From NCBI GenBank assembly GCA_964017235.1, contig OZ024935.1:33645596-33709595 (forward strand): a DNA stretch of 64,000 bases, written 5' to 3'. This DNA comes from Sabellastarte sp. h YS-2021 (Eukaryota > Annelida > Polychaeta > Sabellida > Sabellidae). Both the position numbers and the translations under genes were made by a program. The notes beneath the pieces were generated by a model. That model had not been told where the DNA came from. It saw nothing but the letters and a program-made list of their open reading frames with translations, and made no database searches. This document shows, piece by piece, positions 33,226 to 59,400 of the stretch (position 1 is the stretch's first letter; every line of letters begins with the position of its first letter).

Positions 33226-33810
33226 TTATTTCAAACAAATTAGTATGCAATTAATTAACCTACTCAAATTTTTCCATTGTTTTCTGCTTAATATATGTTC
33301 ATAAACTTCACAATAAAAAGACAACTGTTGATATATCATTTCTTTTATATTTACTGTGCTATAATTTCCTTTATTCATGCTGGTCTTGTACCAGTTGCTA
33401 TAAATAGTGTAGCTTACTATGACAATGCATATAAATTTATTCTCACATATATAGTTGTCACACTGGACTCCTAGTATTATATGTTTTAACATTATATTCA
33501 GATTCAGGCAGTTGCTTAAACTGTTCCATGTTAATTTAATTCTTGGACAATTGTACAGCATGTGACTGATATCTTCTTTTTCTTTACAAACTGAACAGAC
33601 TGATAAATGAGTTTTATTCCACCTACTCAGTTTGTCGTTACAAGCTAATATGTTATGTAGCATTTTGTATTTAAACTCTGAGAATTTTTTATATCTAAGT
33701 GTTTTGTAGTTATTGATATATATCTTTTTCCATTCACTTTCACAAATATCCAGATTTAATTTTCTTTGCCACATATTTTGTGTGTATGGTTTTTTTGCTT
33801 TTTTTTTCAA
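33226..33810 (-). CDS. LINE ORF2 3' part: zinc-knuckle C-terminus (zf-RVT)
   Basis: 194 codons in a shifted frame. LHNILACNDKLSRW followed by C72-x2-C75, H83, C88 is the CCHC knuckle found at the C-terminus of many plant and animal L1-like ORF2 proteins. Ends in LICLK-stop. Confidence 0.85.
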   Translation of the reverse strand: MKKKAKKPYTQNMWQRKLNLDICESEWKKIYINNYKTLRYKKFSEFKYKMLHNILACNDKLSRWNKTHLSVCSVCKEKEDISHMLYNCPRIKLTWNSLSNCLNLNIMLKHIILGVQCDNYICENKFICIVIVSYTIYSNWYKTSMNKGNYSTVNIKEMIYQQLSFYCEVYEHILSRKQWKNLSRLINCILICLK

Positions 33811-36697
33811 CTAGTATCTTGTACCACTCCTTTGTAGCTAACTGCCTTGGATCCATTCGACTACTTGCTGTGTAGAAAGAAAGATTCCTAATGCATGAAT
33901 ACTGAATATACGGACATATTGAGGTGTCAAAATGTTTCCTAATATTTTTATATACAACATTCTTTACCATAAAAAATTCACTTATCCAGTTGTGCTTATT
34001 ATTTAGTTTTTCTTGTAGAATTTCTTCAGTGATGAAATTTCCGTTTTCATCAAATAGATCTTTCACATGGATAAATCCACTGTTTAACCAATTTCTAAAG
34101 AAAAGGCATTTATTTTTTGATTTGAAGTATTCGTTCCCCCAAATTGGTTGAGAGAACATTTCAATTTCTTTCATTTTATTAACAGGTTTAATAAGTTTAC
34201 ATGAGTTATGTGATATAAAAACTTGTTGGTAAAATTTTGGTATTCTGCTCATCACATCAAAACTTTCAATTTTTCGGAAATTCATTTTAAGTAAAGTATT
34301 AAGCTCAATGCCAATTGCTTTTAAGTATATCTGTAATACCTCTGTTGTTTTCTCAGGTTTATTTATGTATCTCGTAACCCAAGAGGCCTTTAAAGCAGAA
34401 TGCTTTGATTCAATATCTGTTATGTTCAGCCCACCATTTTCAATTTTTGTAATCACAGCATTTTTACAAATTTTATGTGTTTTACCCCATAAAAAATTGA
34501 AGATCATGCTTTCCAGCTTATTGATAACATAAGGTGGAGTGAAGATTACTGTCATATTATGGATCAGTTTGGGTATAATTGCATTATTTATGATTGTTGC
34601 TTTGCCGTATAGTGAGAGATTCCTGTTTCCCCATACTGATATTATATTTTCAATGTCACTTAACTTTTGTTCCCAGTTCTTGATTTCACAGATGTCTTCA
34701 TCTTTGTCAATGTAGATACCTAGGCAGCGTATCGGACCATTGTTAAACAGTATCCCTTCAAAGGTGTCAGAGTTATTTTTTAATTGACCAAGCCACATAC
34801 CTTCACATTTGTCAATATTTAGTTCTAGGCCTGATACGGTTTCAAAATTCTTTACCATTTTAATTGAATTTTTAACAGACTGTTTATCACTCAGTGTAAG
34901 AGTTGTATCATCAGCATATTGAATTACATGCGATGATTTGCGAAAAAGTGTTATTCCATTTATGTTTTTTTCTCTTTTTATTTCAGTTGCCAGGAATTCT
35001 ACAGCAAGAATAAATAGAAGTGCTGATACTGCACACCCTTGTCTTACTCCTCTGTTCATTATTGCTTCTTTAGAGATCCATCCATTATTTTTAACACTAA
35101 AACTTGGTTTATTATACAAAATTCTAATCCATTTTATAAAGTTATCCCCAAAGTTGTACTTTCTTAAACATTCAAATAAGAATTTCCAATCCAAGGTATC
35201 AAAAGCCTTTTTAAAGTCCAGGCAAAGAATTGCTCCAGGTTTGTTAAAATCTTCACAGTACTTAATAATGTCCATAATATGTCTTGCGCTGATACCAATA
35301 TATCTATTTTTAACATAGCCAGTTTGATCATCTGAAATTAAATTTGGAATCACTTTCTGAAGACGTCTAGCTAAAACAAATGCCAGAATCTTATAATCAC
35401 AATTAGTCAGACTAATGGGCCTATAATTTTTCAACAATGTCTTATCTCCCTTTTTAAAAATAAGAGTAATTATTGACTTTTTCGTACTGTCTGGTAAGGA
35501 TCCTTTCTCAAATGTCTCATTTATCATTTCAAAATAAAGGGAATCTAGTTGATCCCAGAAAGTTTGAAAGAATTCCGACGTTAAACCATCTGTACCAGGG
35601 GACCTATTTAGCTTTAAATTTTTAACAACATCGTAAATCTCCTCCTTAGTAATCAAGTTTTCACAGAACTTTTGCTCATTTGATGATAATGTTTTTGTTC
35701 CAGTAAAATTATTTAAATATTTATTTATAGTATTTTGTGGTATGTTTCTCCTTTTATATAAACTTTCATAAAACCTTAAAGTTTCTTTTAATATTCCTCT
35801 GTTATCTTTTATCAATCTTCCATTCTGGTTTATTTTTATTAGTACATTGGATGCCTGTCTTTGTTTTTCCAGTGTTAAAAAGTATTTTGATGGAATATCA
35901 CCATATTTTATCCATTTTGCTCTGGCTCTAATTTGGTTACCTTTGTGTTTAAAATCAAAATAACGCTTCTGTTTGCTCAACAATTCACTATTTCTAATTT
36001 GTAGTGCTTCAAGTTCAGTTTTATCATCATTATCTAAATTAGGTTTTGTTTTAAATAACACTATTTTTTCATGCACTTGATCCAATTCTTTTTGTATGTT
36101 CTGTATTGAAATTGATCTTTCTAGAGATTTACTGGTACAATAAGAAATTGTGCATTCTTTAATGTTTATTTTGACCATCTCCCATGTAAGTTGTTTTGAG
36201 TTTAACGATTTACATTCATTTATAGTGTTTTTTATAGTATTGTTTATTACTTTAATATACTCTGGTTCGTTTAACACAGAATTGTTAATCTTCCAATAGC
36301 CAGGCCCTTTTTCGCCACAATCAGTTTTGAAATTTAATTTTAAAGCTGAATGGTCAACCACTCCTGGATTTTTAACTGGTTGAGTGATAGCTAAGTTTTT
36401 AATTTCAAACTGAAAATTACTTGAGAAGAATATATAGTCTAGCCTGCTGTGAGAATTAGATTTTTTGTCTTGATATGTATACCCCTGTTTTCCAGAGTTA
36501 AATGATTTCCAACTGTCAGTAAGTTTACATTTTTTTAAAAGGTTTTCAAGAGATTGCACACTTTTGTCAGCACGTATTGATATTGGGAACCTGTCAGACA
36601 AATTCATACAGCAATTGAAGTCACCAGCTATAACTACGTTTTCCATGTTTATTACATGTGTACACAGCAGTTGGTGTAATTCATCAAAGAATACCAC
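33740..36697 (-). CDS. LINE ORF2 central part: endonuclease C-terminus and reverse transcriptase
   Basis: 985 codons open. Residues about 20-110: the second half of the endonuclease (VVIAGDFNCCMN, SRLDYIFFS, DHSALKLNF). Residues about 360-640: reverse transcriptase with LDFKKAFD and the QYADDTT catalytic box. The remainder is the thumb and connection region (LSLYGKATIIN, WGKTHK). The frame is lost in an A-run near 33805; the zinc-knuckle end continues in another frame. Confidence 0.93.
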   Translation of the reverse strand: MVFFDELHQLLCTHVINMENVVIAGDFNCCMNLSDRFPISIRADKSVQSLENLLKKCKLTDSWKSFNSGKQGYTYQDKKSNSHSRLDYIFFSSNFQFEIKNLAITQPVKNPGVVDHSALKLNFKTDCGEKGPGYWKINNSVLNEPEYIKVINNTIKNTINECKSLNSKQLTWEMVKINIKECTISYCTSKSLERSISIQNIQKELDQVHEKIVLFKTKPNLDNDDKTELEALQIRNSELLSKQKRYFDFKHKGNQIRARAKWIKYGDIPSKYFLTLEKQRQASNVLIKINQNGRLIKDNRGILKETLRFYESLYKRRNIPQNTINKYLNNFTGTKTLSSNEQKFCENLITKEEIYDVVKNLKLNRSPGTDGLTSEFFQTFWDQLDSLYFEMINETFEKGSLPDSTKKSIITLIFKKGDKTLLKNYRPISLTNCDYKILAFVLARRLQKVIPNLISDDQTGYVKNRYIGISARHIMDIIKYCEDFNKPGAILCLDFKKAFDTLDWKFLFECLRKYNFGDNFIKWIRILYNKPSFSVKNNGWISKEAIMNRGVRQGCAVSALLFILAVEFLATEIKREKNINGITLFRKSSHVIQYADDTTLTLSDKQSVKNSIKMVKNFETVSGLELNIDKCEGMWLGQLKNNSDTFEGILFNNGPIRCLGIYIDKDEDICEIKNWEQKLSDIENIISVWGNRNLSLYGKATIINNAIIPKLIHNMTVIFTPPYVINKLESMIFNFLWGKTHKICKNAVITKIENGGLNITDIESKHSALKASWVTRYINKPEKTTEVLQIYLKAIGIELNTLLKMNFRKIESFDVMSRIPKFYQQVFISHNSCKLIKPVNKMKEIEMFSQPIWGNEYFKSKNKCLFFRNWLNSGFIHVKDLFDENGNFITEEILQEKLNNKHNWISEFFMVKNVVYKNIRKHFDTSICPYIQYSCIRNLSFYTASSRMDPRQLATKEWYKILVEKKSKKTIHTKYVAKKIKSGYL

Positions 36698-36738
36698 CCT
36701 ATCTGAATCAGAATTTGGAGCATATACTGAAACAAAAC

Positions 36739-37056
36739 TTAAGAAATAATTTTTTTTTCGGTATTAACTATAAGGATTCTACCATCTTTGCTTGCAAAAG
36801 TACTCATAATGTCACCTTCAAAACCTAACCTAAAAAGAATTGCTACACCTCTGCTGTGACTAGAATCAGAAGGAGCAATGAATGAATTTCCTTTCCAACC
36901 TACTTTAAAAAGTGGCTCAAAAGCTTTAGTGCAAAATGTTTCCTGCAATAATACAACATCAAATTTTTGTGAGTCAAACCATGAGTAGAGTTTATGTCTT
37001 TTACTTTGATCATTTAGACCACGGCAGTTATATGTGACTATGGATAAGTTACTCAT
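36739..37056 (-). CDS. LINE ORF2 5' part: APE endonuclease N-terminus
   Basis: Starts at ATG 37054-37056. MSNLSIVTYNCRGLND and DVVLLQETFC are the first two endonuclease blocks (catalytic N and E). The frame stops at IS after an A-run at about 36747-36755; the domain continues in the next frame from about 36730 (VSVYAPNSDSD... then VVFFDEL). Confidence 0.9.
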   Translation of the reverse strand: MSNLSIVTYNCRGLNDQSKRHKLYSWFDSQKFDVVLLQETFCTKAFEPLFKVGWKGNSFIAPSDSSHSRGVAILFRLGFEGDIMSTFASKDGRILIVNTEKKIIS

Positions 37057-37486
37057 TGTTGTTCTTTTCTATTATAGTTTCCTTCAATGCAGTCAGAATC
37101 TTGCCCATCTTGTTTTTCCCAGGCCATGCACTTTTCTTCACCACAAAACATTGCTCTTTTGTTAACCCTGTAGACCAGAATAGATCTCCTGGAACAGCTT
37201 CGGCTATCACTCCTTCTGACTCAATGAGCGACTTGCAGAAATCTGGACAACATTCTGCCTTTGCAGAGAGAATCTCCTCCATGGCTTTTTCTTTCTGGTC
37301 TGTCCAGTTGGGGTTGTATGGTAGGAAGCTAGCTTCAACTTTTGCCTGAAAGGCTGTCTTTGCTTCTAGGATCCTCTCTGCAACTTTATCGCTTCCTGTT
37401 TGTATAGCCTTTTTGTACTGATAGGCATGTTCTGCAGATTTATGTAGCATGCCATAGAGCTTAATATCACAAGGATAAAAATTGCT
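37049..37486 (-). CDS. LINE ORF1 fragment encoding a NADAR (YbiA-like) domain
   Basis: The frame opens upstream of the first ATG (37448-37450): the codons before it read SNFYPCDIKLYG, so the true start was lost with the 5' truncation near 37486. Visible NADAR hallmarks in order: SNFYP, SAEHAYQYKKA, AERILEA, NPNW...K, M..IL.AK, EAVPGDLFWSTGL, WPGKNKMGKILTALK. NADAR proteins cleave N-glycosidic bonds in riboflavin intermediates or ADP-ribosyl derivatives; what it would do in a LINE is unknown. The stop TAA lies inside the start of ORF2 (ATGAGTAA). Domain call by motif memory; a profile search would settle it. Confidence 0.75.
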   Translation of the reverse strand, partial: SNFYPCDIKLYGMLHKSAEHAYQYKKAIQTGSDKVAERILEAKTAFQAKVEASFLPYNPNWTDQKEKAMEEILSAKAECCPDFCKSLIESEGVIAEAVPGDLFWSTGLTKEQCFVVKKSAWPGKNKMGKILTALKETIIEKNNNE

Positions 37487-38142
37487 GTTATCACTGTTGA
37501 GTAAATTACTTTTAACTTCAAAAGTATTACATTTAGAGTATTTTGTTTCAATATATTATTCACCTATTTCGGAGTCAGCTATAACATAGTGAAGTTCCAG
37601 ACCTGTGGCTCATTGCATAGCTGAGTAATAGCTACTTTGAAGTTCACACTGTTGAGTAAATCAGTTGTAATTGGAAAACTATTGCATTTACAGAAATTTG
37701 TGTAAATATGTTATTCAGCTACTTTTGGGTCAGCTATAACATAGTGAAATTACAGACCTGTAGCTCATGCCACAACTGAGCAATAGCTATTTTCAGGTAC
37801 TGACTGTTGAGTAAATGACTTGTAACTTGAAAAATATTGCATTTGGAGTATTTTGTTAAAATATGTTGTTCACCTACTTTTGGGTCAGCTATAACATCGT
37901 GAAATTACAGACTTATAGCTCATGGCATAGCTGAGCAATAGCTATTTTCAGGTTCTCACTATTGAGTAAATCAGTTGTAACTTGAAAACTATTGCATTTA
38001 CAGTATTTTGCTTAAATATGTTGTTCACCTAATTTTGGGTCAGCTATAACATAGAACAAATTCAGACATGTAGCTCATTGCATAGCTGAGTAATAACTAC
38101 TTTGAGGTTATCACTGTTGAGTAAATCAGTTATAACGTGAAA
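37487..38142 (+). repeat. Outer tandem array, 158-bp units, between LINE and CAC-ended transposon
   Basis: About four units of TGAGTAAATCAGTTGTAACT... through GGGTCAGCTATAACATAG and ATAGCTGAGTAATAGC. It is interrupted exactly at GTGAAA by the transposon end at 38143. Confidence 0.88.
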
Positions 38143-38940
38143 CACAGTAGTTTTCTCCAAGTGTGTTTAGTTAACTTAGCAGAAAAATCTCTCACACACA
38201 GAACACTGATGTACACATCCCCCTCCCCAAAACCCACAGCATTACACACACTTCATTTTGTGTGGGGAGTGATGTCACAAAATATGCATTAAAATTAGAG
38301 TTTATATTGTCAAAGTAAAAATAGTTTTACCCAATTTTTTTTGAAAAAAATAGTCTTTATTAAAAGAATGATATCTTATTATTAAATTAATAAAAATACA
38401 TTAATAAAAACTACTTAATTTATACTGTAAAACGAGCACATTCCATTGTATCTGCATCCAGAAAACTATAACTCAAAGTGTCACAAAGTTATAAAAGTTA
38501 CCATTTTATTTTCAAAGATTTTAATATGAACCGAAGTTTTAATTGATATTAAAATTACACCACCACAAGCTACTAGATGTGTTGATTCTGATGGTGTAAC
38601 TATTATATGCTTTCCACTTTTTTGTTACAAGAAAAGCTAAAATGAAAAGTACTTACAATGGAGAAGTGGCTTACTTAAACAGGTGTTGGTTTCTAATACA
38701 TAGTGTACACAAAGTGATATATCCTGGTTAGAGTCTACAGAAGCAGAGTGATAAGAAAAATATTACTTTGTGGATAATTGATGCAAGCTTTCAATTTAAT
38801 TATCCTTTAAGACATGGTCATTTTTTTATTTATCACAATAGTTGTAGCAGCTGTTGATTACCACGTAATGATACACAAATAGAGTTGATTAAACAGCAGT
38901 TTTTGCAGTCTAATATTTAGAAATTATGCGCTATTCCAAT

Positions 38941-41900
38941 TTAATTCTTGTCTTTTGCCACTCTGGGCTTGATAATGTTTTTTTGTACAAATGGATGGGT
39001 TATTGTATGATGTTCCTGCATGATATAAAATAACCTTTTCTCTGCTTGTGGAACATGGCACATGGTGCGCTCTAATTTGTTGAATTCCCTGTGAATTGCT
39101 TCCCCACCTTGTTCTCCATGAAGTGCCATGCCAAACCCATATTTTGTCATCCACTGGGGAATGTGATCTTCTAAAAACTGCATCTTTGGTATCACACAGT
39201 TGGGGAAATGTTTCCTGTAAAAGAACATATATTTTGTGATGGTGATATCTATTTTGTCAAGATCTTCTTTGGTTGCTGGGTTCATATGACCAACCATTTC
39301 ATGGACAGCAGCAAACAAATAATTCAGCTTTCTAAATTTTGTAACTATTGTTGAAATTGTCTCATTTATATCTTCATTTCCCAGTAATTCACACATTTTT
39401 TCCTGCAAGCTTGACCACAAATCATCTTGGACATCTTGCTTGACATATTTTGAGCACTGGTTTCCAACAAAAGATCTAGAATGGTATGCTTGTTGAACAA
39501 TGTGATGGCGCTTCAAGACCTTTTGAACCTCAGAAACTAATGGACCACTAAAGATACTGAGAGTTGGGACTGGTTTCTTAAGTTTATTTTTTAAACTTGC
39601 TATAAATGACTCAAATTCTGAAGCTTCTTTTTTGGTCAATCCTGAATTAACATCTGTTGTCTCACGTAGATACCCAAGTTGGTTTCGGATTTGTCTTCGA
39701 TTTCTTAAATTTTGGATGTACACATGAAACACTGTGTTATCCAGTTTTGCCTTTGACATTTCTATTTCAGATGCAATCCGGAGATCTATTTCATGGAGTT
39801 CTTTTTCAAGTAGGTCATGGTGCTTTTTCACAATGCCGAGAAGTATGTGCAAATAAGGCGGGCAGACTTTAGATATGTTTATATCCCATAATGGCTCATG
39901 GATAGCATTATGAAAATGTGAGGCATGTTGTAATTTGGCCTTTCCCTTTTTGAGGAAGTTTTCATGATCACGTTTTGTCCCTATTAGTGTTCTGACACTG
40001 GAATGACCTCTTTGACATAATGAAGTCTGCATCTCTTCAGTTTTGGCTAGACACCACAGACAAAAGTATCTTCCTCTTGCACCTGACAGGCCATAAATCG
40101 CTGACAAAAATGCGTAGTCCACAAAGAGAAATAAGCGTATTCTCTTTCGCTTCCAGTGTTCTTTCTGTAGTTCCTGGATTTGATCTGTATAAATAGCTGT
40201 TAATTTTGCAAGATTTTCATGAAGGTCTTTTGCTGGCATACAAGCAATGACAATGGTATTCTGTTTCGCATTTGGTCTTTCCAAATTGCATACTTGGAGA
40301 CACAATTTGAATGACTTTCCACCATGATCACCACCGAGTTTCACCCATATCTCATTTTCAGGCATACTATCTTTCCACACTAACATATTTGCCTTTTTGT
40401 AGTTGTGTAGCAATTCTTTCAAAAATTGGGTTAGGTCTTTTATATATACTACAGGAACCTCAACTTCTGCAAGCCCACCAGAGCTTTTACATCCAACATC
40501 ATCCTTTACTTTAGCTTTTATCATTACAGTTGATAGGTGACCAGAAAGCAGAAACTTCCTTTCATCCCTTAATGATTTTTCACTTTCACACTGAACACCT
40601 AGACCTTGTGATAAAAAGCGCTTCTGCATGCGGTGCTGTGACCAAGTCAAATTCAATGATGTTTTCATTGCCAATGCGACACGCTTTGAGAGAAAACTCT
40701 TTTGCTTGACACCTGCTCTAGCACAAATGTCCAATCGACATTTCTTCGGTATTCTTCCAAGTTCAGAAGCTTGTTGCTTTTGGTGAGATTCAACATCTTG
40801 ACCTGCAATAAGTGAACGATATTGTGAAATTTCTTTTGCCCTTCTTCTTTTCAAAGGTGATTTTGTATGGCTAGATGTTTTTCTTGCTTTTATGAGCCTT
40901 TTCAATAGAATTGGTTGACCACCAGTTTTACATCGTATGGTGCTTTTGTCTTTGGCAAATGTTAACTTTCTCTTTGTAAGGTGAGTATGAATTCTTTCTT
41001 CTTCTTTAGATAGTGGGGATGAGATGGATCTTTGTAATGGGTTTACTATTGACGTTTCTTGAGTTGAAATTGATGTATCTGACATATTCTGAATTGGTGA
41101 AGTCTGTGTTTCTATTTCCATCTTGTGTTCCCCAGGGTTTTGACGGCCATGTGGAGTGCTGTGTAGTTGATATTCTGTTGCTAGATCTGAAACAGTACTA
41201 TCCAAACTGTCAGATATTGTTGCATGAGTTTGACAGCTATGTAATGGTAAATTTGAGAGTGAACCAATATAATTACATTTCGGACACTTTACTTCAAGAT
41301 TTTTCACTTGTTCAGTAAATCTGTCATCAGATTTTCTGACATCACATTGTTCAATAACAGTTTGACAGGTAGGGCAATCAGCAATATTGCTATCTTTATG
41401 TTTGAAGTGATCCGACAAACAATGTGAACAAAAGTAATGGTCACATATAGTTCTAAGAGACTGAAGAGAGTACACATCTTGGCAAATTTCACAAGTAAAT
41501 GTCTTACTTTGAGATGCTGGCATGTTTTGAATTTCAAATTCCATATCTGCAACTCCCTCATGTTCTTCAAAAAGACTGCTAAAAATGTTTTTCTCTTTTT
41601 TTTGCCTTTGTTTTGGTCTACCTTGTTTTTTAGATGCCTGAGGTCTGCCTCCTGTTTTCTTTGATGTGTATGCATTACATACAATACAATTGTATCTCTT
41701 GTGAGAAGTCCATATTTTATTAACTGTAGTAGCTTTCTCCTTCTCCCCTAGAAATGTTTCTTTATTCATCTTTGTATCATCAGACATAACCTTGGCTTTC
41801 TTCATTTTGTTATAGCATGGGCAACACATAATTTTTGGATGCAATTCAGTATCACAAGTAATATCCAAACCAAAGAAAATATAAATTTCATCTTTCACAT

Positions 41901-42012
41901 TTTCACAGACTCTTTGTGGAGTTTTTTTCCTAATCTGTTGTTCTGTAAGTGCTCTTTTACTGCATATTCTACACATATTTAACAAACATTTTTTGTGATA
42001 GTCAAAAGACAT
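38941..42012 (-). CDS. RAG1-N-like transposase: zinc region, RING finger, C2H2 finger, DDE-like core
   Basis: Intact 1023-codon ORF. Residues 9-66: cysteine-rich block C9, CRIC (14-17), VKDEIYIFFGLDI and HPKIMCCPC (58-66), matching the layout of the RAG1 N-terminal zinc region. Residues 122-133: two GRP AT-hook-like motifs. Residues 174-216: C3HC4 RING (C174, C177, C190, H192, C195, C198, C213, C216). Residues 243-263: C243-C246-H258-H263 finger directly after it, as in RAG1. Residues 555-660: KLGGDHGGKSFKLCLQV (D563) and FVDYAFLSAIYGLSGARG followed by CLWC (D633, C652, C655). Residues 960-985: MALHGEQGGEAIHREFNKL (E967 or E971). These are candidate catalytic residues. It resembles the N-RAG-TP protein described in Aplysia (Panchin and Moroz). 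Core homology to RAG1 is inferred, not computed. Confidence 0.85.
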   Translation of the reverse strand: MSFDYHKKCLLNMCRICSKRALTEQQIRKKTPQRVCENVKDEIYIFFGLDITCDTELHPKIMCCPCYNKMKKAKVMSDDTKMNKETFLGEKEKATTVNKIWTSHKRYNCIVCNAYTSKKTGGRPQASKKQGRPKQRQKKEKNIFSSLFEEHEGVADMEFEIQNMPASQSKTFTCEICQDVYSLQSLRTICDHYFCSHCLSDHFKHKDSNIADCPTCQTVIEQCDVRKSDDRFTEQVKNLEVKCPKCNYIGSLSNLPLHSCQTHATISDSLDSTVSDLATEYQLHSTPHGRQNPGEHKMEIETQTSPIQNMSDTSISTQETSIVNPLQRSISSPLSKEEERIHTHLTKRKLTFAKDKSTIRCKTGGQPILLKRLIKARKTSSHTKSPLKRRRAKEISQYRSLIAGQDVESHQKQQASELGRIPKKCRLDICARAGVKQKSFLSKRVALAMKTSLNLTWSQHRMQKRFLSQGLGVQCESEKSLRDERKFLLSGHLSTVMIKAKVKDDVGCKSSGGLAEVEVPVVYIKDLTQFLKELLHNYKKANMLVWKDSMPENEIWVKLGGDHGGKSFKLCLQVCNLERPNAKQNTIVIACMPAKDLHENLAKLTAIYTDQIQELQKEHWKRKRIRLFLFVDYAFLSAIYGLSGARGRYFCLWCLAKTEEMQTSLCQRGHSSVRTLIGTKRDHENFLKKGKAKLQHASHFHNAIHEPLWDINISKVCPPYLHILLGIVKKHHDLLEKELHEIDLRIASEIEMSKAKLDNTVFHVYIQNLRNRRQIRNQLGYLRETTDVNSGLTKKEASEFESFIASLKNKLKKPVPTLSIFSGPLVSEVQKVLKRHHIVQQAYHSRSFVGNQCSKYVKQDVQDDLWSSLQEKMCELLGNEDINETISTIVTKFRKLNYLFAAVHEMVGHMNPATKEDLDKIDITITKYMFFYRKHFPNCVIPKMQFLEDHIPQWMTKYGFGMALHGEQGGEAIHREFNKLERTMCHVPQAEKRLFYIMQEHHTITHPFVQKNIIKPRVAKDKN

Positions 42013-42375
42013 CTTTAAGACTTGTTTGTGTCAGATTTTAAAATAACACTTCAAAGAATTGAAAACAACATCTATTTTCTCAATATCTTCTCTTATATCA
42101 CTCACTGTACTTGCAGCATGTATTAAAACTGCACAGAAATAGATCAAGCTGCTTTGGCAATCCTTAGACACCAACACTTACACCACCCCAAACATGAAAC
42201 AAATAACCCATGGTACTACACATAACCAAAAAGGCCACATAAAAAAAATATTAAAAGTAACTCCCAATATGGCCATTAATCAGCCCATTTTTAGATTAAA
42301 ATCCATGGGATAGTTTAAAATCTGTAATTTAAAAGTCCAACACTTGCACCTTCCCTAGAGTTAAAAGGCATAATT

Positions 42376-42830
42376 ACATACTTACCAACCCACAAACAGA
42401 CAAACCCAATACCAAACATAACCCCCAAATAACAAACCCAGTACCAAACCTAATACCCAACTACCCCAAAAAAACCCAACCCCAGTAACCACCAACCAAC
42501 AAACACCCAAACCCAAAAGTAGATAGAACCCATGCCAACGAACTGACAAACTATTTAGCAAACACAATCCCCCATTATTGAAAGCAAAACTAGTTCCATG
42601 GTTATATTTTCCAAATTTTTGTGATTAGAAATGACTATTTAAAATTGAATATTTCCATAAAAAAATTTCTGCTACAAATAAGTTTCCCAGCCATGAAAAA
42701 AGAAAAATGTTTAAATTATGATGTGGATTTGAAAATATATAAAATAATTATTCAATTTAGGATATTATGTGTCACTTTGTGTTTCGCTTTTGTTTAACAG
42801 TGGGTTTGTCTGTTTGTTGGGTGAGTAAGT
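42376..42830. repeat. Imperfect inverted repeat around AT-rich DNA, related to the minisatellite
   Basis: The left arm (42376-42420, ACTTACCAACCCACAAACAG...) is the reverse complement, with a few mismatches, of 42796-42830 (GTGGGTTTGTCTGTTTGTTG...). Between them is about 370 bp of AT-rich unique sequence. The minisatellite seems to have grown from the right arm. Confidence 0.65.
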
Positions 42831-42858
42831 TGTGTTTGTCTGTTTGTCTGTCTGAACA

Positions 42859-43195
42859 AGTTATGTTTGGCATGGGGTTTGTCTGTTTGTCCGTCTCAAC
42901 AAGTTATGTTTGGCATGGGGTTTGTCTGTTTGTACGTCTCAACAAGTTATGTTTGGCATGGGGTTTGTCTGTTTGTACGTCTCGACAGGTTATGTTTGGC
43001 ATGGGGTTTGTCTGTCCGTCTCAACAAGTTATGTTTGGCATGGGGTTTGTCTGTTTGTACGTCTCAACAAGTTATGTTTGGCATGGGGTTTGTCTGTTTG
43101 TACGTCTTGACAGGTTATGTTTGGCATGGGGTTTGTCTGTTTGTCCGTCTCAACAAGTTATGTTTGGCATGGGGTTTGTCTGTTTGTCCACATAG
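42859..43195. repeat. 43-bp minisatellite, about eight copies
   Basis: The unit starts GTTATGTTTGGCATGGGG and continues TTTGTCTGTTTGTACGTCTC. Starts at 42859, 42902, 42945, 42988, 43024 (7-bp deletion in the unit before), 43067, 43110, 43153. Because 43 is not a multiple of three and the unit lacks stops, all plus-strand frames stay open; these ORFs are not genes. Confidence 0.9.
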
Positions 43196-43281
43196 CTGAT
43201 TAATTGTTTTTGGAATATTTGGTAGTCCTGAAAAGGACTGTTATAGTTAGTCCTGAAAAGGACTGTTTACTGCAACAGGAC

Positions 43282-44598
43282 TTATATTCTGCCATCTTGC
43301 CAGGCCACCGCTCCCTCATTATTGAAGTAGTCCTTCAGGTAATCCCTCTGTCTTTTGGCCTCTCTAGCAGGGTTTCTGTCTTGGCCACCACCAGCAGCAC
43401 CACCAATCAATCCACAATCACCAGGCACATCATCATCATCATCATCATCCCCCCCAGGCTGCTGACCAGCAGGTTGACCTTGATACTGGCTTCTGAGTAT
43501 ATTGTGCAGAACCACACAGGTCATGACCACTTCTCTAACTGTTTCTGGGGGTAGTTCAATGGTGGTCCTCATGACTCTAAATCTTGACACAAGGATGCCA
43601 AAAGCGTTCTCCACAACTCTCCTGCCCCTTGATATTCTGTAGTTGGCAATCCTTTCCTCCCTTGTTAACAGCCTTCTGCCATAGGGTTTCATGAGCCAGG
43701 TCTTCAGGGCAAAGGCATCATCTGCCAAAATGAAGTAGGGGACATCTCTACCACCCTGTGTTATAGGAGCTGGGTCAGGGAAGCCTATCCTGCCATCTTC
43801 AATCCTCCTCTTCAGCTGAGAGGCATTAAATATCTGGGCATCTGAGCAAGACCCTTCTGTACCCACATCCACCCATCTGAATTTGTACTGCCCATCTACC
43901 AAGGCCAACATGACAATGGAAAAGAACCCCTTGTAGTTGTGGTAGAGGGCTCCAGAGTTCTTGGGTTTCTTCAGGGCCACATGCTTTCCATCCAGGGCTC
44001 CTAGGGCATGTGGAACATTCCACCTGATCCTGAATTCCCTTTCCAGTTCTTTCCACTCATCTGGAGTAGTAGGACATTTGAGGTACTCTCTGGTGAACTC
44101 ATCCTGGATGGCCCTGCAGACCTCTGGTAGAAACTTGGAAATGGTGGATCTGCCAACCCTGAACTGACAGGATAATGATGTGTATGACTCTCCAGTGGCC
44201 AGATATCTGATGGTGAGGGCTAACTTCTCCCCAACACTGATAGGAGCTCTGTAGTTGGTGGCCTGCCTGGCTAGACGTGGTTCCAGTCTGGTCTTCATCA
44301 TTTCAAAGAATTCTGGGGTCATCCTCATGTAGTTGGTGAATCCTGGAATGTCTGTGGCATACAGATCAGCCATAATGTTGTGGTAGGCCCCCCTCTCCTC
44401 TCTCTGCAGAAGCCATGGCCTGACCCACATGTTGTGCCTTCTTCTAGGTCTCTGTATGGGTGCTGGTGGTGCTGGTGGTGGTGGTGGTGGTTGCTGTGCT
44501 TGACGTAAAAAATGGAAATACATGATTATTTGTAACTGAATAAAAACCAAGAAAGCCCTAAGTTGTTGTTGAATCTGTCTTCCATTAAAAGGTGGCAT
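43282..44598 (-). CDS. HARBI1-like PIF/Harbinger transposase (DDE_Tnp_4), intact
   Basis: 438 codons. Residues 110-175: helix-turn-helix region (SVGEKLALTIRYLATGESY, FRVGRSTIS). Catalytic domain: ALDGKHVALKKP (D203), DVGTEGSCSDAQIF (D253), YFILADDAFALKTW (D293), RRVVENAFGILVSRFRV (E330). HARBI1-type nucleases cut DNA at TIRs together with a Myb-like partner; no partner ORF is visible nearby. A GAT-rich trinucleotide run (43433-43448) encodes a run of seven D at about 384-390, and a GGT run near 44470 encodes a run of P. The ORF is uninterrupted, so the copy is young or conserved. Its own TIRs were not found; it lies inside the larger CAC-ended transposon, most simply as a nested insertion. 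Confidence 0.92.
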   Translation of the reverse strand: MPPFNGRQIQQQLRAFLVFIQLQIIMYFHFLRQAQQPPPPPPAPPAPIQRPRRRHNMWVRPWLLQREERGAYHNIMADLYATDIPGFTNYMRMTPEFFEMMKTRLEPRLARQATNYRAPISVGEKLALTIRYLATGESYTSLSCQFRVGRSTISKFLPEVCRAIQDEFTREYLKCPTTPDEWKELEREFRIRWNVPHALGALDGKHVALKKPKNSGALYHNYKGFFSIVMLALVDGQYKFRWVDVGTEGSCSDAQIFNASQLKRRIEDGRIGFPDPAPITQGGRDVPYFILADDAFALKTWLMKPYGRRLLTREERIANYRISRGRRVVENAFGILVSRFRVMRTTIELPPETVREVVMTCVVLHNILRSQYQGQPAGQQPGGDDDDDDDVPGDCGLIGGAAGGGQDRNPAREAKRQRDYLKDYFNNEGAVAWQDGRI

Positions 44599-44639
44599 CC
44601 TGGTGTGTTCCTAGAAAAGCAATGATGATTAGATCGCAA

Positions 44640-45070
44640 ATTTTATATATATATACCCAGAAAATCCAGCAACTTTGCAAAACAATAATCGGGGATCGTG
44701 GTCTGGGGAGGCCTGAGGAGGCCTGAGGACGCCTGAGGACGCCGGTAGTTAATCGTGTGTTAGTCGGCTCTTAGTCCCAGGAGGCCTGAGGCGTCCTGGG
44801 ACCCAGTCGGTTTGTGTCCGACAGGATCGTGGTTCAAACCAACCCGAAAACTGGCTTAGTCGGTTCTTAGTCCCAGACCAGTCGGGGACTGTCTGCGGCC
44901 GCCTGAGGCGTCCTGAGGTGTCCTGAGGCGTCCTGGGGACGATCTGTTCTTAATCCCAGACTTCAGTACCGACCCAGTATTCCCGCCCATTTTTGTCTTT
45001 TTTCAACCGACTGTGCACGATTAAGGGTCGCCGACAGGATCGGGGCTTAATCCTTTGGTGGAACAGGGGC
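44640..45070. repeat. GC-rich stretch of short direct repeats upstream of the Harbinger ORF
   Basis: Contrasts sharply with its AT-rich surroundings. Repeats of GGCCTGAGGAC and CCTGAGGCGTCCTG, and GATCGTGG, GGCTTAGTCGGTTCTTAG. It lies 5' of the Harbinger ORF on the minus strand and may be its promoter or subterminal region; the outer edge near 45070 is a candidate element boundary. Confidence 0.55.
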
Positions 45071-45945
45071 ATTAAAATGATATCTTTCTTAGATGGGAGG
45101 TGTATATAAACAGATCATCATAGTCAGTATATTTGATGGATGGAAGCACGGAGCAGGAATTAGATAACACACAGAATTGTCAGTAATCTTAAACACAGAA
45201 AATTGAGAATACTCCATTAAGTAGCATAAAGTTTATAAAAAATACAGTATTTAAAGTTATAAATTCTCCTTAACCTTTACTTTTCCTGAAATAATAAATT
45301 TTATTGAAGAACAGTGAATTTACAAGTTTATTAAAATAACTTATAAATTCCTATAAAGAAAGCAGAGCTATAAGGTCACAAGTTGAAATACACAATACAA
45401 GCAACATGCATCCTGTTTCCTAAGTCATAAGTTAAATTTTCAGTTATGTTTGAGGAGTCATTACTCAGTACAAAAAAGTGGAAAGCATATATTATTTATA
45501 CAGATTGTGAGATAAATGTCTTGGGAATAATGTGATGTAATTTTTTTGCTAATAAAAACTTCGTTTATTTTAAAATTACTTAAATAAAAATATGAGGTTT
45601 TAAGTAAAATTTAACTTTCAAGTACACTTGTTTAATGGATGGAAGAGATTGGAATGTTGGAAAGTTTTTCCTCAAAACTCATATATCCTTGAATAATATT
45701 TACACCATCTTGTAGAGAAAAGACTGATCTTTTAATACATATATTTTTTTTAAGAATACACAAAGCAAATGTTAAATGAGGAAACATTTATTTTGGTGTA
45801 CTGATTATTCTAATCCTGCTTGTCTGCATAAAGTGTGTTGAGTGGGATGTGTGTGTGTGATGAACAGTAAACAAACTGTTGCAGTTAGTGGACCAAAGAG
45901 CACAACACACAGCATTAAAACTAAAGTGAAGCAATTGGTGGCAAA
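45071..45945. other. AT-rich right part of the CAC-ended transposon
   Basis: No ORF or RNA signal seen. Ends in GT-rich subterminal DNA (45846-45860) mirrored by CA-rich DNA just inside the left end (38190-38245). Confidence 0.5.
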
Positions 45946-45957
45946 AAAACTACTGTG

Positions 45958-46990
45958 GAAAACTATTACATTTACAGTATTTTGTTTAAATATGTTATTC
46001 ACATAATTTTTGGTCAGCTATAACATAGTGAAATTGCAGACCTCTATGTCATGGCATAGCTTACCAATATCTACTTTCAGGTTCTCACTGCTGAGTAAAT
46101 CATTGTATCCACTGGATAGCCGCAATGTGTAGTGAGATTTCACCATTACCGCTCTAACGAAAAAAAATATTATAGCTAGCCTTCTCAAGTTTGCAAGGTA
46201 TATTAGAGGTGCACCACAGTATTCTATTGGTAGGCTTTATGTCTAAATTAGGCCTGTGGCTAAATTACTTGCCTACTAAAAATGAGTAATTCTGTATTTT
46301 CTCTAAAAGTATTGCAGATAGCAAATTTTTCTTAAATAACTCATTCACCTACTTTTGGGAGAGCTTTGACATGCTGAAGTTCCAGACCTGTAGGTAATTA
46401 CTCACCTACTCAAATTGAGTAAATGCAAATTATCTCTAAAAGTATTGCAGATAGCCAATTTTTCTCAAATAACTCATTCACCTACTTTTGGGAGAGCTTT
46501 CACTTGGTGAAGTTTCAGACCCGTAGGTAATTACTCACCTACTCAAAATGAGTAAATGCAAATTATCTCTAAAAGTATTCCCGATAGCCAATTTTTGTCA
46601 AATAACTCCTTCACCTACTTTTGGGAGACCTTTCACTTGGTGAAGTTTCAGACCTGTAGCTAATTATTCACCTCAAAATGAGTAAATGCTAATTATCTCT
46701 AAAAGTATTGCAGATATCCAATTCTTATCAAATAACTCATTCATCTACTTTTGGGAGAGCTTTCACATATTGAAGTTCCAGACCCGTAGGTAATTACTCG
46801 CCTACTGAAAATGAGTAAATTCGAATTATCTCTAAAAGTATTGTAGATAGCCAATTTTTCTCAAATAACTCATTTGCCTACTTTTCAGAGAGCTTTCACT
46901 TGGTGAAGTTTCAGACCCGTAGCTAATTATTCACCTACTCAAAATGAGTAAATGCGAATTATCTCTAGAAGTATTGCAGATAGCCAGTAT
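45958..46990 (+). repeat. Outer tandem array resumed, then 133-bp units
   Basis: 45958-46110 completes the 158-bp unit cut by the transposon. 46300-46990 holds about five units of 133 bp (GAGTAAATGCAAATTATCTC ... ACTTTTGGGAGAGCTTTCAC). A GGTAGGCTTTATGTCTAAAT segment at 46229 links it to the unit at 31980 and 32160. Confidence 0.85.
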
Positions 46991-47334
46991 TTCTCAAATA
47001 ACTCATTAATATGAAAACAACTTATAGGAAGTCATGGGCTGCAAATCTTTTCATGTGGTCAGATTTGACCTTGGGCCCCTCCTGCTTATTATTGGTCCTA
47101 GAGGTTTGCAATGTGAAAACGACTTATAGGAAATCATGGGCTGCGAATCTTTTGATGTGGTCAGACTTCACCTTGGGCCCCTGCTACAGGATCAAATAAG
47201 GGTAGCCAAACTTAAAAGTGCTTTCAGCTTGCTTATTAACGAAAAATGCTGTTTATCTTCTAAACTATGTTAGTTGGCCTTTGTCGGTGGATACATCCAA
47301 CATCTGGCCACAGATGCATCCTTAGTCTAGTTTG
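46991..47334. repeat. Truncated copy of the CTAGAC-ended repeat
   Basis: Two units of the TATAGGAAATCATGGGCTG / TCAGATTTGACCTTGG repeat, then GGTGGATACATCCAAC and a terminal GATGCATCCTTAGTCTAG. It shares these with the foldback element at 28063-29776. It also creates the short ORF at 47011, which is not a gene. Confidence 0.7.
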
Positions 47335-47340
47335 AATACA

Positions 47341-48455
47341 TTTTACCCCACAGCCCTGAAGGGCTGTCAGGGTATTGTTTTCACCCATGGTGTCTGGATG
47401 GATGGGTGAGCAGGCAGCCCGATGGGCAGTCGGTTGGTTGGGCAGGTGGCAGGAAAAAGTTTGTTCGGGCTGTGTCTCAGAAACAGTAAGGTGTAGGAAG
47501 TTGATACTTGGTAGGGGCATTGGTAAGGAGGTGTAAGTGTGCAATGTCATGGTCTGACCTTGATTTGACCTTGCCGTAGTGACCTTGACCTATAAAATCT
47601 TGTCCGGGCTATATCTCGGAAACCGTAAGGTGTAGGAAGTTAATACTTGGTAGGGACATTGGTTAGGGGGTGTAGTTGTGCAACATCATGGTGTGATGTT
47701 GATTTGACCTTTGACGTCACCATAGTGACCTTGACCTTTAAAATCTTGTCTGGGATATATCTCGGAAACTGTAAGGTATAGGAAGTTTATAATTAGTAAG
47801 AACATTAGTTAGGGGGTGTAGTTGTGCAACATCATGGTGTGACCTTGATTTGACCTTTGACCTTGCCATAGTGACCTTGACCTATAAAATCTTGTCCAGG
47901 CTATATCGTGGAAACTGTAAGGTGTAGGAAGTTGATACTTGGAAGGGACATTGGTTAGGGGGTGTAGGGGTATAACGCCATGGTGTGACCTTGATCGGAC
48001 CTTTGACCTTGCCATAGTGACCTTGACCTTTAAAATCTTGTCCGGGCTATGCGGAAACCGTAAGGTGTAGGAAGTTGTTACTTGGTAGGGACATTGGTTG
48101 GGGGTGTAGGTGTGCAACATCATAGTTTACATACTTGTGCTATTTCCATTGACGGCTATTCTATAATTAATAAACTTTACAGCTTCATATTTTTTAGTTT
48201 ACTGATTAATGCTGTCATCTTGCTATTGAATTGTCTCGTTTTAGTACTTTATCTTTACATACATTTTCTTTCTCTTAGATGTTATTTAAACTTATTTTCT
48301 CTACTTAAACATTATTTGGACCTTTATATAAGTGACACTGCGCAGAAAGTATTCCGGTCTTTGTACTGTTTCACTACTTCTATATGTCATGGTGTTGAAA
48401 ACTATTTCCCCAGGCTGTGGGGTACGGGCATCTCTAATGCTATTTTTCTAATAAT
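47341..48455 (+). repeat. Same dispersed repeat, copy 2, with hairpin cap
   Basis: Hairpin TACCCCACAGCCCTGAAGGGCTGT... (47344-47374), a stretch of GGGCAGTCGGTTGG-type repeats, then four to five units of about 155 bp (AAACCGTAAGGTGTAGGAAG ... TTGGTAGGGACATTGG ... GACCTTTGACCTTGCCATAG). The tail from 48126 to 48455 matches 31510-31829. The array makes the ORFs at 47260 and 47809. Confidence 0.78.
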
Positions 48456-49600: not shown

Positions 49601-50432
49601 TTTTGAAATGCCACCATGGTGGACGTGTGTGCTCAGTGGTTTCTAGTACACTTTGTGACCATTTTATCAGTTAACACTTATTATTATGGAAGCTAGAGGG
49701 TGAACCACCGTACTATTGTGAACTTACTAAATACCCACAAAATATTTATTCAGTGCCTGGATGTGTGTGTTCAAGTATGCATGTGTTCCTCAGTGGGGAG
49801 AAATCTACTGAAAATTAATTTACAGGTTTGGTTTCATTTTATAGTCTTCCTACGTAGCTTCAAATACAAACAACAGATGGTCTGTAAAACAATACTTTGT
49901 AACATTTATAAGGCTGGTCACACAGAGTCGAGCGTTTTGCTCTCTCCGAGTGCATCTTGTTATGAATGTATTGAATCAATGAAAATTACTGTGTGATGAA
50001 TAGTGTATTTTTATAATGTTCACATGTAATACTTGTTTTTGTAATTATCCTGATATTTTTGAAATAGTAATTGTATGTGCAGTCCATTTCCTTCACTTAT
50101 GATTGAAAGAATGCCCAATTTTCAGATTTGTTGCTACTTTAGTGCTGATGGTCAGGCTCATATAAATATATGGTGTCTCCAGAATTGCATCATTGTGAAA
50201 AACTTCAACGATATTTGAAATATACTTGCTATTAATAATGCAAGGAATGGATGTGGTATATGCTCCTATTCACGAAATATTGATGTATTTAAGATGCTGG
50301 AAATCCTTAATCCATACCCCTAACATACATAATATTGCTCACATACTTATCAAAATATTAATGGTTTTTCCCAATTTTTACTGTATCGTTTTGTTAGAGT
50401 ATACTGTTGTTACTTTTTGTAGATCTTCAACC

Positions 50433-51680
50433 ATGCCCAAAAAGAAGAAAAGGCAGCATAATATCCCACAGAAGAGTCCAAGACTGTTACCAACCTTAAA
50501 AACAACCAAGACAGACCAACACGTGGTTAAACAAGGTCAGGCCAGGGAGATATATTACTTTGCCCTTGAAAAACAAGTGGTTGACCTTGACTGTCTGCCA
50601 CACACTTGCTTTTTGGTAGACTATAAACCAAAGGAAGGAATTCTGGGAATAGACAAATACACATATTTACGTGAAGGTTTGTGCATCAGTTTAGTGGATC
50701 AGTATGCATTTCATTTCCCACAACCAGAAAATTCCAGGGTTATTGGAAAACCCAGAGTAATAGCCAGTCTCTCTGATATTTTGGTCTTACAGTATATATG
50801 TGAGTCTGAAAAATACATGAAATTCACAGTCGTCAACTGCTTGACAGGTGCTTTGAAACATTTCAATGATGGTACGAAATATTTCAAGAAAGATCTGATG
50901 TGTGCTGGTACCATTGACTGCCATGTCACTGCAAGTAAAGAAGGGGAATGCAAAATGTTTGCTCGGCTTCCTGAATCTCTTCTGTCAAAGCAGAAATCCT
51001 TGGTGCTTACCACTGAATGGAATATTTACTCTGAAAAGAGTATCACTGACTTGGTCAAGTATAATCTACAGGCTCACAGGTTTCAAGCCATTGCAGTTAA
51101 TCCTGGTGAGAATTTCCTTTTCATAGCAGAAGTGGATGTTTTCTGTGAAAAAATAACATTGCAAAAACTGAACTTAAACGGGGCAAGTTCAACCAAAGTG
51201 GGCCATATAAGGAAAAAGGTAGATGTACAACAGTTGGCAAGACCAGGTACTGGTGATAGTCTGACACTGACCCATGTTTCCATGGCTTTAAATCAGAGTA
51301 GAGACTTTCTGGTGATTTGCATGAAGTGTACACTTACACCTGCCTTCAATTCACAGACTTCAGACAAATGTTTTGTGGTCATCAAAATAATTGATCCTGA
51401 AACGTTAGACTCTCTGAATGAGTCTGTGAATGAAGTGAGGCTACATGAAACAGTAAATGCAATAATACCAGTATTTTCCCCTTGTGGTTCTGTGGTTAAG
51501 GTAATGGGTCACATGGCACATGGCAAATACTACATTTTATCAGAAAGAACCTTGCCAAAGCTACTGATGCTCCAAAACTTCTGTCGCACTGTGATATTGA
51601 ACTTGTGTACACAAGCTCAAGTTAACGCTTTAGGATTACCCCAAAAACTAGAGAAATATCTGTTGTTTCAACCACAGTAA
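50433..51680 (+). CDS. SOCS-box protein, 415 aa, otherwise unrecognised
   Basis: Start chosen at ATG 50433 (AACCATGCCC, good context). The frame is open 69 codons further up, but that part is hydrophobic non-conserved-looking sequence, and a likely splice acceptor TACTTTTTGTAG ends at 50422. N-terminal basic MPKKKKRQ. The C-terminus is a SOCS box: BC box LQNFCRTVI with the spaced L and C, then LPQKLEKYLLF. SOCS boxes bind elongin B/C and a cullin to form an E3 ubiquitin ligase; the 370-residue middle, presumably substrate-binding, has strand-rich repeats that could be a beta-propeller (inference). AATAAA signals follow at about 51750-51780. No gene symbol can be given. Confidence 0.85.
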   Translation: MPKKKKRQHNIPQKSPRLLPTLKTTKTDQHVVKQGQAREIYYFALEKQVVDLDCLPHTCFLVDYKPKEGILGIDKYTYLREGLCISLVDQYAFHFPQPENSRVIGKPRVIASLSDILVLQYICESEKYMKFTVVNCLTGALKHFNDGTKYFKKDLMCAGTIDCHVTASKEGECKMFARLPESLLSKQKSLVLTTEWNIYSEKSITDLVKYNLQAHRFQAIAVNPGENFLFIAEVDVFCEKITLQKLNLNGASSTKVGHIRKKVDVQQLARPGTGDSLTLTHVSMALNQSRDFLVICMKCTLTPAFNSQTSDKCFVVIKIIDPETLDSLNESVNEVRLHETVNAIIPVFSPCGSVVKVMGHMAHGKYYILSERTLPKLLMLQNFCRTVILNLCTQAQVNALGLPQKLEKYLLFQPQ

Positions 51681-56467: not shown

Positions 56468-59400
56468 CTGAAACACAACAAAACTTTTTATGTGCAGATC
56501 ATTCTTGCAAAATTGAGGGTTCTCAGTTGCCAACTGGTTGACAAGCTTTGCACTTGATTTTCACTGATGTGGTCATGACTTCAAATCCAGGGCATGGCAA
56601 CATCACTTAGAGCTTCTCCTGATGTGACCTTAGTTATTGAAAGGGTCATAAATGTCAAAACTTTGAACCAGTTCAGCCTGGTCATCTCGGTGGCATAGAT
56701 GTACCAAGTTTTAGTAAATGATCACTTAAGTAATTGGTCCCATATCTATGTGATTACAGGTTCAGTTCTAACTTGGGACAACATGTGTGAAATGATGGCC
56801 TATTCCTGGACCCCTGCTCTTACAAAGACACGAATATCTAACCTTGAATTGAGCTAACAAAAATTTTTAAGCTGGAGGACCTCCTGAGGAAATTGTAGTT
56901 TGATTTTTACCTGTCAGTTGCGATAGTGTTCCAGCATGGGGACCTGTGTAGTCATCTGGTAGATATTCCTGTGGTAGGGACTGCATAGGGATATGTTTAT
57001 ACAGGCTCTCTGCAGTGTCATGGACATGTATCTGTTGAATACAATAGAAAAGTTGTGACCCATGTGACATTGTAAATTTTAACAAGAAAGTAGACACATG
57101 CATATAAATACAATTCTAACATGACACGCTTGTGTCTGTGATTTTGATTCATCAATCGCCATTGTAAAACCGAGCATAACCTCACGGCCAGTTTTTCATA
57201 TGTGGGCGATAATCCCACTTCACTTTTTAAAAGTCAAATTACAAAGAATATGCACTACAAATCTTCATAAAAACAGTAACAAACAAGGAATAAATGATAA
57301 ATGTCATGTTAGAATCGCAATAGCACTCCTAGCGTGGGGTTATGCATAGTTTTACAACTCATGTTATTGATATTACTATTTGTTGTAAAACCCTGGGGCC
57401 GATTTCACAAAGGGACTTAAGTCCAGATTTAGACTTAAATTTAAAACTTTGGTCTTAAATTTTGTCAACAGAATGTTAAGTCTGTGGTCTTAGCGGATTT
57501 CACAAAGCAGCTAAGTCAATGAAATTGCTAAGTCAGTGGACTTAACTTTAAGTCTGGGAGGTAGTGGGCTTAAATTTTGTAAAGAGGACTTAAATATGGC
57601 TGCCATAAACTTTTCTCCCCTTCAAAACTTGAAATGGCTGTAAACAAAGTATAATTACACAGAACACCTTACTGAAGTAGTCTTTCAGAAGTTAATATGA
57701 TGTAAAAAGGTTTTCTATTTCAAAGCAGCACTTATCCTTAGATAAAATGCATCAAATGAAGGATATAAAAGGTCATATGACACAGAAAACCACTGTGGTT
57801 ATTTGATAAGCTTGGAGCTAAGTCACCCTTTTGTGAAATCCATTGAAGTCCCAGACCTAGCTAAGACCAAAGTCTTAGATTTAAGTCCCTGACGAAGCCC
57901 CTTTGTGAAATCAGGACCTGTATAACCCCACACTAGTCGTGTTATTTCTATATTTGAGTAATATATATATTATTGAAAACATACACAAGGCCTAGTGGTT
58001 AGCACGTTTGGCATCTAATCACTGGTAGTCACCTCTGTGTGGGTTTAAACCCCACAAGTGACAATGCTGAGGACCTGTCCCAATATGACCGTGGCTGTTG
58101 AACAGGACATAAAGCACCAGCTTTGACCTTTGAAAACATCACTTGTATTATTTTTCATTTATTATTCACAATTTTGTAAGAATAATTAAAAAGTTAATAT
58201 TAACTGATAGTTATGTAAATAATGGAGAAAAAATCAGCTGTAAAACCTATTCATAGTAAGGGGCAGTGGAAAATAAAAAAATAGCACTACCTAGGTTGTA
58301 CATCTCAGTATTTAGGTTTGAGGCATTGTGCGATAGATAATGAATAACATAACACATTTTGTTTTTTAAAGTAGTAATGTGCACTAGAAGAGCATATATA
58401 TATTAATGGGTAAAATGTTTATATTTTTCACAAATGTAAATTTGGTAATTACACGGAAGTGTATAGAGTTCAGTTTCACTCACCCTTTCCACAAATTTTT
58501 TAGCCAGAAATGGTTTCAAGAATCCCATAATAGTGTCAAGCAGCAAACCAGCATTGTAAAAGTGGAATCCTTTGAACCGGACTGGGATATTTTTCTGAAA
58601 AATATAATTATCCTGATCTACAGTACAAAACTAATATGATAGAGACAATCATCTGGTCTATTTCACTTGGTGTGACCGAATCATTTAAGACTATAGCAAA
58701 TACAAATAGAGAACTCAAAAATATACATAAATATAGCAAACAAATTAGCATTGCATAGTCACTTTAAATAGCTTAACTTTTTATAAAATAAAAACAAACT
58801 TGATTGTTTATTTGTTAATGGGCAAAAACCACACATATATTATTGTATTTCTTGTCCGTTGTCACACAACACTTGCAGTTTTACAGAAATATTTTAAAAT
58901 AGATTCTTTGAGAATTTTGAGTTTATACCAATATTCTTTAGCTTTCATTGCCTGAAGGAAAAACTGGTGTCTTATTTGTGAAAATGATCAATCTTGTCAT
59001 GTGACTATGGTAATTAAATATTCCAACATTCTTGCAGCCAGCATAACATACTAGTCTCACCACACTACAGTACCTGCCATAATTTGTTCCACTTGGTGGT
59101 CTCTGCAGTGAGGAGTTTTGTGAGTACTTTCAGTGTAACACCTGTAAAATCCATGATGTACACAGCTCCATTCACCTGAGTGCACTCTGACTGAGTCAAA
59201 TACTGCACCATCACTGTGGCAAACTTACACCACAGAAAGGCTAGGTTGTTCTTCCTTGGGTCCAAACAATCTGTAATAAAAAATTAATGTTGTAAATGTT
59301 GATTGAATTTGTTAAGTGCAAGCTCTACTGAGGCTCGCACTTCCAGAGATCTTTTTTTTTCTAAGTGAGAAAGTGAGAATGCTAATGAGGCTTGCGTTTC

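Follow-up and report, generated by a model that had tools for sequence, protein, structure and literature searches.

A probable Chapaev-type transposon with a RAG1-like transposase and two-box ends at two spacings in a sabellid annelid genome

The locus

The window, by which we mean the whole 64,000-nucleotide stretch of contig OZ024935.1 analyzed from the annelid Sabellastarte sp. h YS-2021, contains at 38143-45957 a mobile element bounded by inverted ends. It is very probably a cut-and-paste DNA transposon of the Chapaev type (CMC), about 4.9 kb long, with a RAG1-like transposase and bipartite ends, which later received a Harbinger-type insert. An initial annotation had described the interval as a recently inserted, complete transposon with the RAG1 N-terminal zinc/RING/C2H2 architecture; that observation was confirmed, and the interpretation built on it is supported in part. 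The features of the element are as follows.

38139-38142: left target site duplication, GAAA; the empty site is visible in neighboring satellite units
38143-45957: the element, read as Chapaev-type; opens with CACAGTAGTTTT at 38143 and closes at 45957 with the reverse complement
38143-38172, plus strand: short-spacer end (3' of the gene); box 1 CACAGTAGTTTT at 38143-38154, 11-nt spacer, box 2 TTTAGTT at 38166-38172
38941-42012, minus strand: predicted transposase open reading frame (ORF), 1023 aa, no internal stop
Residues ~1-120 of that ORF: Chapa-type zinc region
Residues ~170-262: RING and C2H2
Residues 430-1023: RNase H-like core, proposed triad D562, D632 and E971
C651, C654, position 945 and H950: core zinc motif
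42164-42166 and 45072-45074: proposed TTA duplication, which presumes one T fewer than in the sister copies
42167-45071, minus strand: nested PIF/Harbinger-type insertion, foreign to the Chapaev element and absent from sister copies
43282-44598: intact HARBI1-like ORF, 438 aa, inside the nested insertion (DDE_Tnp_4, E 2.4e-32)
45919-45957, minus strand: long-spacer end (5' of the gene); box 1 at 45946-45957, 20-nt spacer, box 2 TTTAGTT at 45919-45925
45958-45961: right target site duplication, GAAA, matching the left copy

The terminal repeats are 12 bp long (CACAGTAGTTTT, inverted at both borders) and are flanked on either side by GAAA, in line with the matching ends and target duplication noted in the initial annotation. 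The insertion site is a 155-bp satellite. Because the satellite units adjoining the element retain the uninterrupted site, the duplication is read as 4 bp long, a length of 5 bp being inconsistent with that site. Target duplications of 4 bp were found in all nine two-ended copies (window, L031, L033, L036, L039, L040, L041, L042 and L044); for L039, L040, L041, L042 and L044 the end finder required a duplication of 3, 4 or 5 bp, and only its length is informative there. For L043, the end finder returned no left end with a 3-, 4- or 5-bp duplication. A 32-nt inverted repeat (91% complementary, 38594-38625 and 45470-45501) lies about 450 bp inside each element end, and tandem arrays of 133-bp and 146-bp units (46263-48123) adjoin the satellite.

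Bipartite ends with two spacings

Counted from the tips, TTTAGTT begins at position 24 of the left end and position 33 of the right end of the window element, and occurs nowhere else within the first 400 bp of either. The same layout recurs in four families of this genome, which have CACAGTRGTTTT, 11 nt and TTTAGTT at one end and the same boxes 20 nt apart at the other. When ends were oriented by the gene, TTTAGTT stood at 24 on the 3' side in 11 of 11 and at 33 on the 5' side in 10 of 11, the remaining one being L033 (position 34, 21-nt spacer). The short end of L020 has TTTAGCT in place of TTTAGTT. Within the first 39 positions, the four families share both boxes and only three scattered single positions besides; the spacers average 36% (11-nt) and 30% (20-nt) identity between families, with both lengths retained. 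The ends open with the heptamer CACAGTG in two families and with CACAGTA in the other two, the window's family among them.

Across the genome, a search for the two boxes separated by any gap of 5-35 gave 175 matches, whereas the reversed pattern gave 14. A gap of 20 was found in 44 and a gap of 11 in 37 of the first 100 matches listed; the complete G-type list (n = 81) has 29 with gap 11 and 28 with gap 20, and its gaps of 15-17 come mostly from another repeat having the same 12-bp box. The ends counted comprise 145 of the 175 matches (64 A-type and all 81 G-type). Facing neighbors at most 35 kb apart were taken as pairs (30 in the first list, 25 in the second, 11 shared), which gave 44 distinct pairs, 19 A-type and 25 G-type, among the matches listed. 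Of these, 39 are 11/20, two 11/18, and one each 11/19, 12/20 and 6/14; none joins two short or two long ends. The distance within pairs is 4.5-5.4 kb in 25 and 1.7-2.8 kb in 10, the latter probably non-autonomous copies, with the other nine at 3.1-30 kb. As a sequence layout, these ends resemble the recombination signal sequence (RSS), in that a heptamer and a distal box stand at two fixed spacings and unlike ends are paired. It is this end layout, rather than the protein, that deserves follow-up.

A third box, CACAGTGGTTTT, lies in the window at 57797 (minus strand), followed by CTGTGTCATATGAC and without TTTAGTT. Sequences like it are found elsewhere in the genome, and this seems to be another repeat family with the same 12-bp box.

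The transposase

Judged by sequence and fold similarity, the predicted transposase is homologous to RAG1 over its whole length, through a zinc-rich Chapa region, RING and C2H2, and an RNase H-like core. All the motifs listed in the initial annotation are present in the open 1023-codon frame: CRIC at 14, HPKIMCCPC (its HPxxxCCxC) at 58, a C3HC4 RING from C174 to C216, a C2H2 finger (CPKC 243, HSC 258), CLWC at 651 and the late motif HGEQGGE at 965-971. Its two acidic residues exist as well, but D563 and D633 were numbered one too high and are D562 and D632. The core alignment to RAG1, there only inferred, agrees with a core fold that matches RAG1 and Transib, and the N-terminal profile comparison that it proposed gave a match colinear with RAG1 98-366. 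The ORF also matches the PF06918/DUF1280 transposase family (E 1.4e-21).

The Chapa region was judged by its colinearity with RAG1, in place of a Chapa domain model. An alignment profile was needed for the RAG1 match; a single-sequence PDB search returned mainly RING proteins, with RAG1 not among them, and a search with residues 1-280 alone matched one protein. Residues 335-470 were examined for a nonamer-binding domain of the RAG1 type, and none was found. A GGQP motif within that segment, which we take to recall the GGRP of RAG1, is a lead only.

Proposed mechanism and meaning of the two spacings

By homology with RAG1 and Transib, we infer that a transposase dimer would hold both element ends, cleave in front of CAC to excise the element, and join it to target DNA with a 4-bp stagger. 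We further propose that the transposase recognizes both boxes of each end. The role of the two spacings can be read in two ways.

The spacings may be a frozen accident, namely an old 9-bp length difference within a longer inverted repeat, with no pairing rule; in a variant, the function of box 2 lies in transcription or elsewhere, again without a pairing rule. Jointly, these fall just short of what we would call probable. The ends are always transmitted together, and indel variants are present in the genome. What such an accident explains poorly is that the lengths are unchanged in four families whose spacer identity is near random, and that box 2 is present at both ends and not on the promoter side alone.

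Alternatively, the spacings may be functional, such that the transposase favors one short and one long end, a rule like 12/23 with lengths of its own and without RAG2; we advance this tentatively. The case for function lies in the spacer lengths having been kept while the spacer sequences decayed. The pairs point the same way (39 of 44 being 11/20, none short/short or long/long, among the matches listed), as does the related ProtoRAG, which requires asymmetric ends according to passages of PMC8289069. However, because the element transmits both ends together, unlike pairing within it is predicted by descent alone and proves little. Variants also exist (21 nt in L033 and the five deviating pairs), and the evidence comes from the sequence of one genome. 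Chapaev-RING elements might then have their own spacer rule, a RAG1-like transposase synapsing a short-spacer with a long-spacer end in the absence of RAG2, although we regard this as doubtful. If true, asymmetric ends and RSS-like heptamers would be an old trait of RAG1/Transib/Chapaev enzymes and not an invention of RAG1-RAG2.

With RAG1 and the RSS of jawed vertebrates, the window element shares the N-terminal zinc/RING/C2H2 region, the core fold and two boxes at two spacings; it differs in its 4-bp duplication and in lacking a RAG2-type gene. The consensus RSS heptamer, CACAGTG (PMC8289069, in part), is present in two of the four families, whereas the window has CACAGTA. The RSS has an A-rich nonamer and spacers of 12/23; here, the distal box is TTTAGTT and the heptamer-to-box distances are 16/25 (11/20 from the 12-bp box). 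Amphioxus ProtoRAG, as described in passages of PMC8289069, likewise has a terminal and a distal box, with spacers fixed at two lengths (27/31), but carries RAG1L and RAG2L, a distal box GCCATCTTG and 5-bp duplications. Asymmetry as such is not new: the same passages report apparent asymmetry in the ends of other RAG-like transposons, and a figure legend in PMC8355894 calls those of the eastern oyster RAGL asymmetric. Elsewhere in the passages of PMC8355894 compared, the 27/31 ends of amphioxus ProtoRAG are given as the only asymmetric invertebrate ends, with 12/23 outside RAG only in some Transibs. Transib differs from the window element in its 5-bp duplications and in lacking a RAG1-like N-terminus (PMC8355894, in part).

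The N-RAG-TP of Aplysia is, like the window element, a transposon with a protein resembling the RAG1 N-terminus; in the parts of PMC8355894, PMC2996935 and PMC13337447 compared, it is described as N-terminal-like only, whereas the window core is also RAG1-like, a comparison by description only. Because the N-terminus here sits on a RAG1-like core, the idea that RAG1 borrowed it from a separate transposon is weakened. The origins of the RAG1 N-terminus and of the 12/23 rule remain disputed. Elements that combine the full architecture of RAG1 with near-identical copies and clear two-length ends offer a RAG2-free, non-vertebrate system in which both questions can be tested, and the ability of RAG1-like transposases to read two spacings unaided by RAG2 becomes open to direct test.

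Assignment to Chapaev

Chapaev target duplications are 4 bp long, as are those found here. The PF06918/DUF1280 family, matched by the transposase, has been assigned to Chapaev (PMC3985635). Passages of PMC12730594 give C(2)C and H(3-4)H motifs between the second D and the last E as characteristic of CMC transposases; the lineage has both (C651/C654, and H945/H950 in relatives), and the window copy has them in part, position 945 being Q. A Chapa domain followed by RING is reported for two Chapaev subgroups in passages of PMC4411706, and the same order is found here by colinearity with RAG1 98-366. Those elements resemble the window element in domain order, PF06918 transposase and animal hosts. 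The domain architecture is already known, and the window protein adds a member to a group that is uncommon but already recognized. The passages of PMC4411706 compared do not mention ends with two boxes at two spacings. In an incomplete collection of open-licence papers, Repbase Reports excluded, no account of such ends in Chapaev was found, which is only a weak sign that they are new.

A Transib or RAGL element (RAG1L with RAG2L) would account for the core fold and N-terminus, which resemble RAG1 and Transib, but we consider it very improbable. The duplications are 4 bp and not the 5 bp of Transib and RAGL (PMC7204232, in part), and the protein belongs to PF06918 and not PF12940. The convergent RAG2L of RAGL elements has no candidate among element ORFs of at least 100 aa, these being, apart from the transposase and the HARBI1-like ORF, overlapping frames or frames in repeat arrays.

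Copies, families and state of the window copy

A search of the 1.79-Gb genome with the 798-bp left end gave 19 matches, seven of them (including the window) full-length at 96-100% identity, and one with the transposase protein gave at least 53, a recurrence that exceeds chance. Besides the window, eight loci lie in or near its subfamily (84-99% DNA identity). Further families share about 47-51% protein identity, and three have copies with full-length open frames as well as copy pairs 97.2-99.2% identical in DNA. In sister copy L032 (C2, 3.5 Mb), the sequence is broken at about window position 41922, where several kb intervene, the 155-bp satellite among them.

Over 3974 columns, 17 substitutions are private to the window copy, compared with 22-44 in each of four sister copies. 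Because this is the fewest of the five, it appears comparatively young, in line with the recent insertion first suggested. The private substitutions were too few for use when split by codon position. Two changes fall at conserved sites. At 631, V is private to the window, with G in 41 of 43 locus rows and a gap in two; at 945, where the window has Q, H is found in 37 of 40 readable rows, F in two (cuts of one copy) and D in one, overlapping cuts of one copy being counted separately in both tallies. In the protein alignment, all 11 relatives have G631, and all nine that reach position 945 have H945; in the zinc motif common to CMC, Transib and RAG1 (motif after passages of PMC12730594), H945 is the leading histidine. 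Because of G631V and H945Q, the window copy probably no longer encodes an active enzyme, despite its open ORF.

In a midpoint-rooted core tree of 17 rows (P0014-P0016, which have no core, were excluded), P0003, with RING, branches outside P0002, without RING, with supports of 90/89 to 96/94, a hint that the RING was lost; the RING label denotes the C3HC4 pattern and is not informative on ligand conservation. Among IMG/VR viral contigs, 24 stretches fitted the search pattern and none was confirmed.

The nested insertion

The 2.9-kb Harbinger-type insert contradicts the earlier description of 38143-45957 as one complete transposon; the ends and duplication stand, and without the insert the element measures about 4.9 kb. 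That the interval is a single composite transposon with RAG1-like and Harbinger-type transposases, as the enclosure of both ORFs by the same ends might suggest, is already contradicted by the lack of 42167-45071 in seven of seven sister copies covering the junction, and is hardly credible. A scan for terminal repeats of the insert gave nothing convincing, and its borders were taken from the sister-copy comparison. Also within the insert are an array of 43-bp repeats (42834-43189) and, at ~44700-45000, a GC-rich stretch.

Other features of the window

A non-LTR retrotransposon (33226-37056, minus strand) has endonuclease, reverse transcriptase and zf-RVT domains over several ORFs, and is adjoined by a NADAR-domain ORF (133 aa, 37049-37450, E 4.4e-19). 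A 484-aa ORF at 50226-51680 has a weak SOCS-box match (E 0.00049, below the Pfam cut-off).
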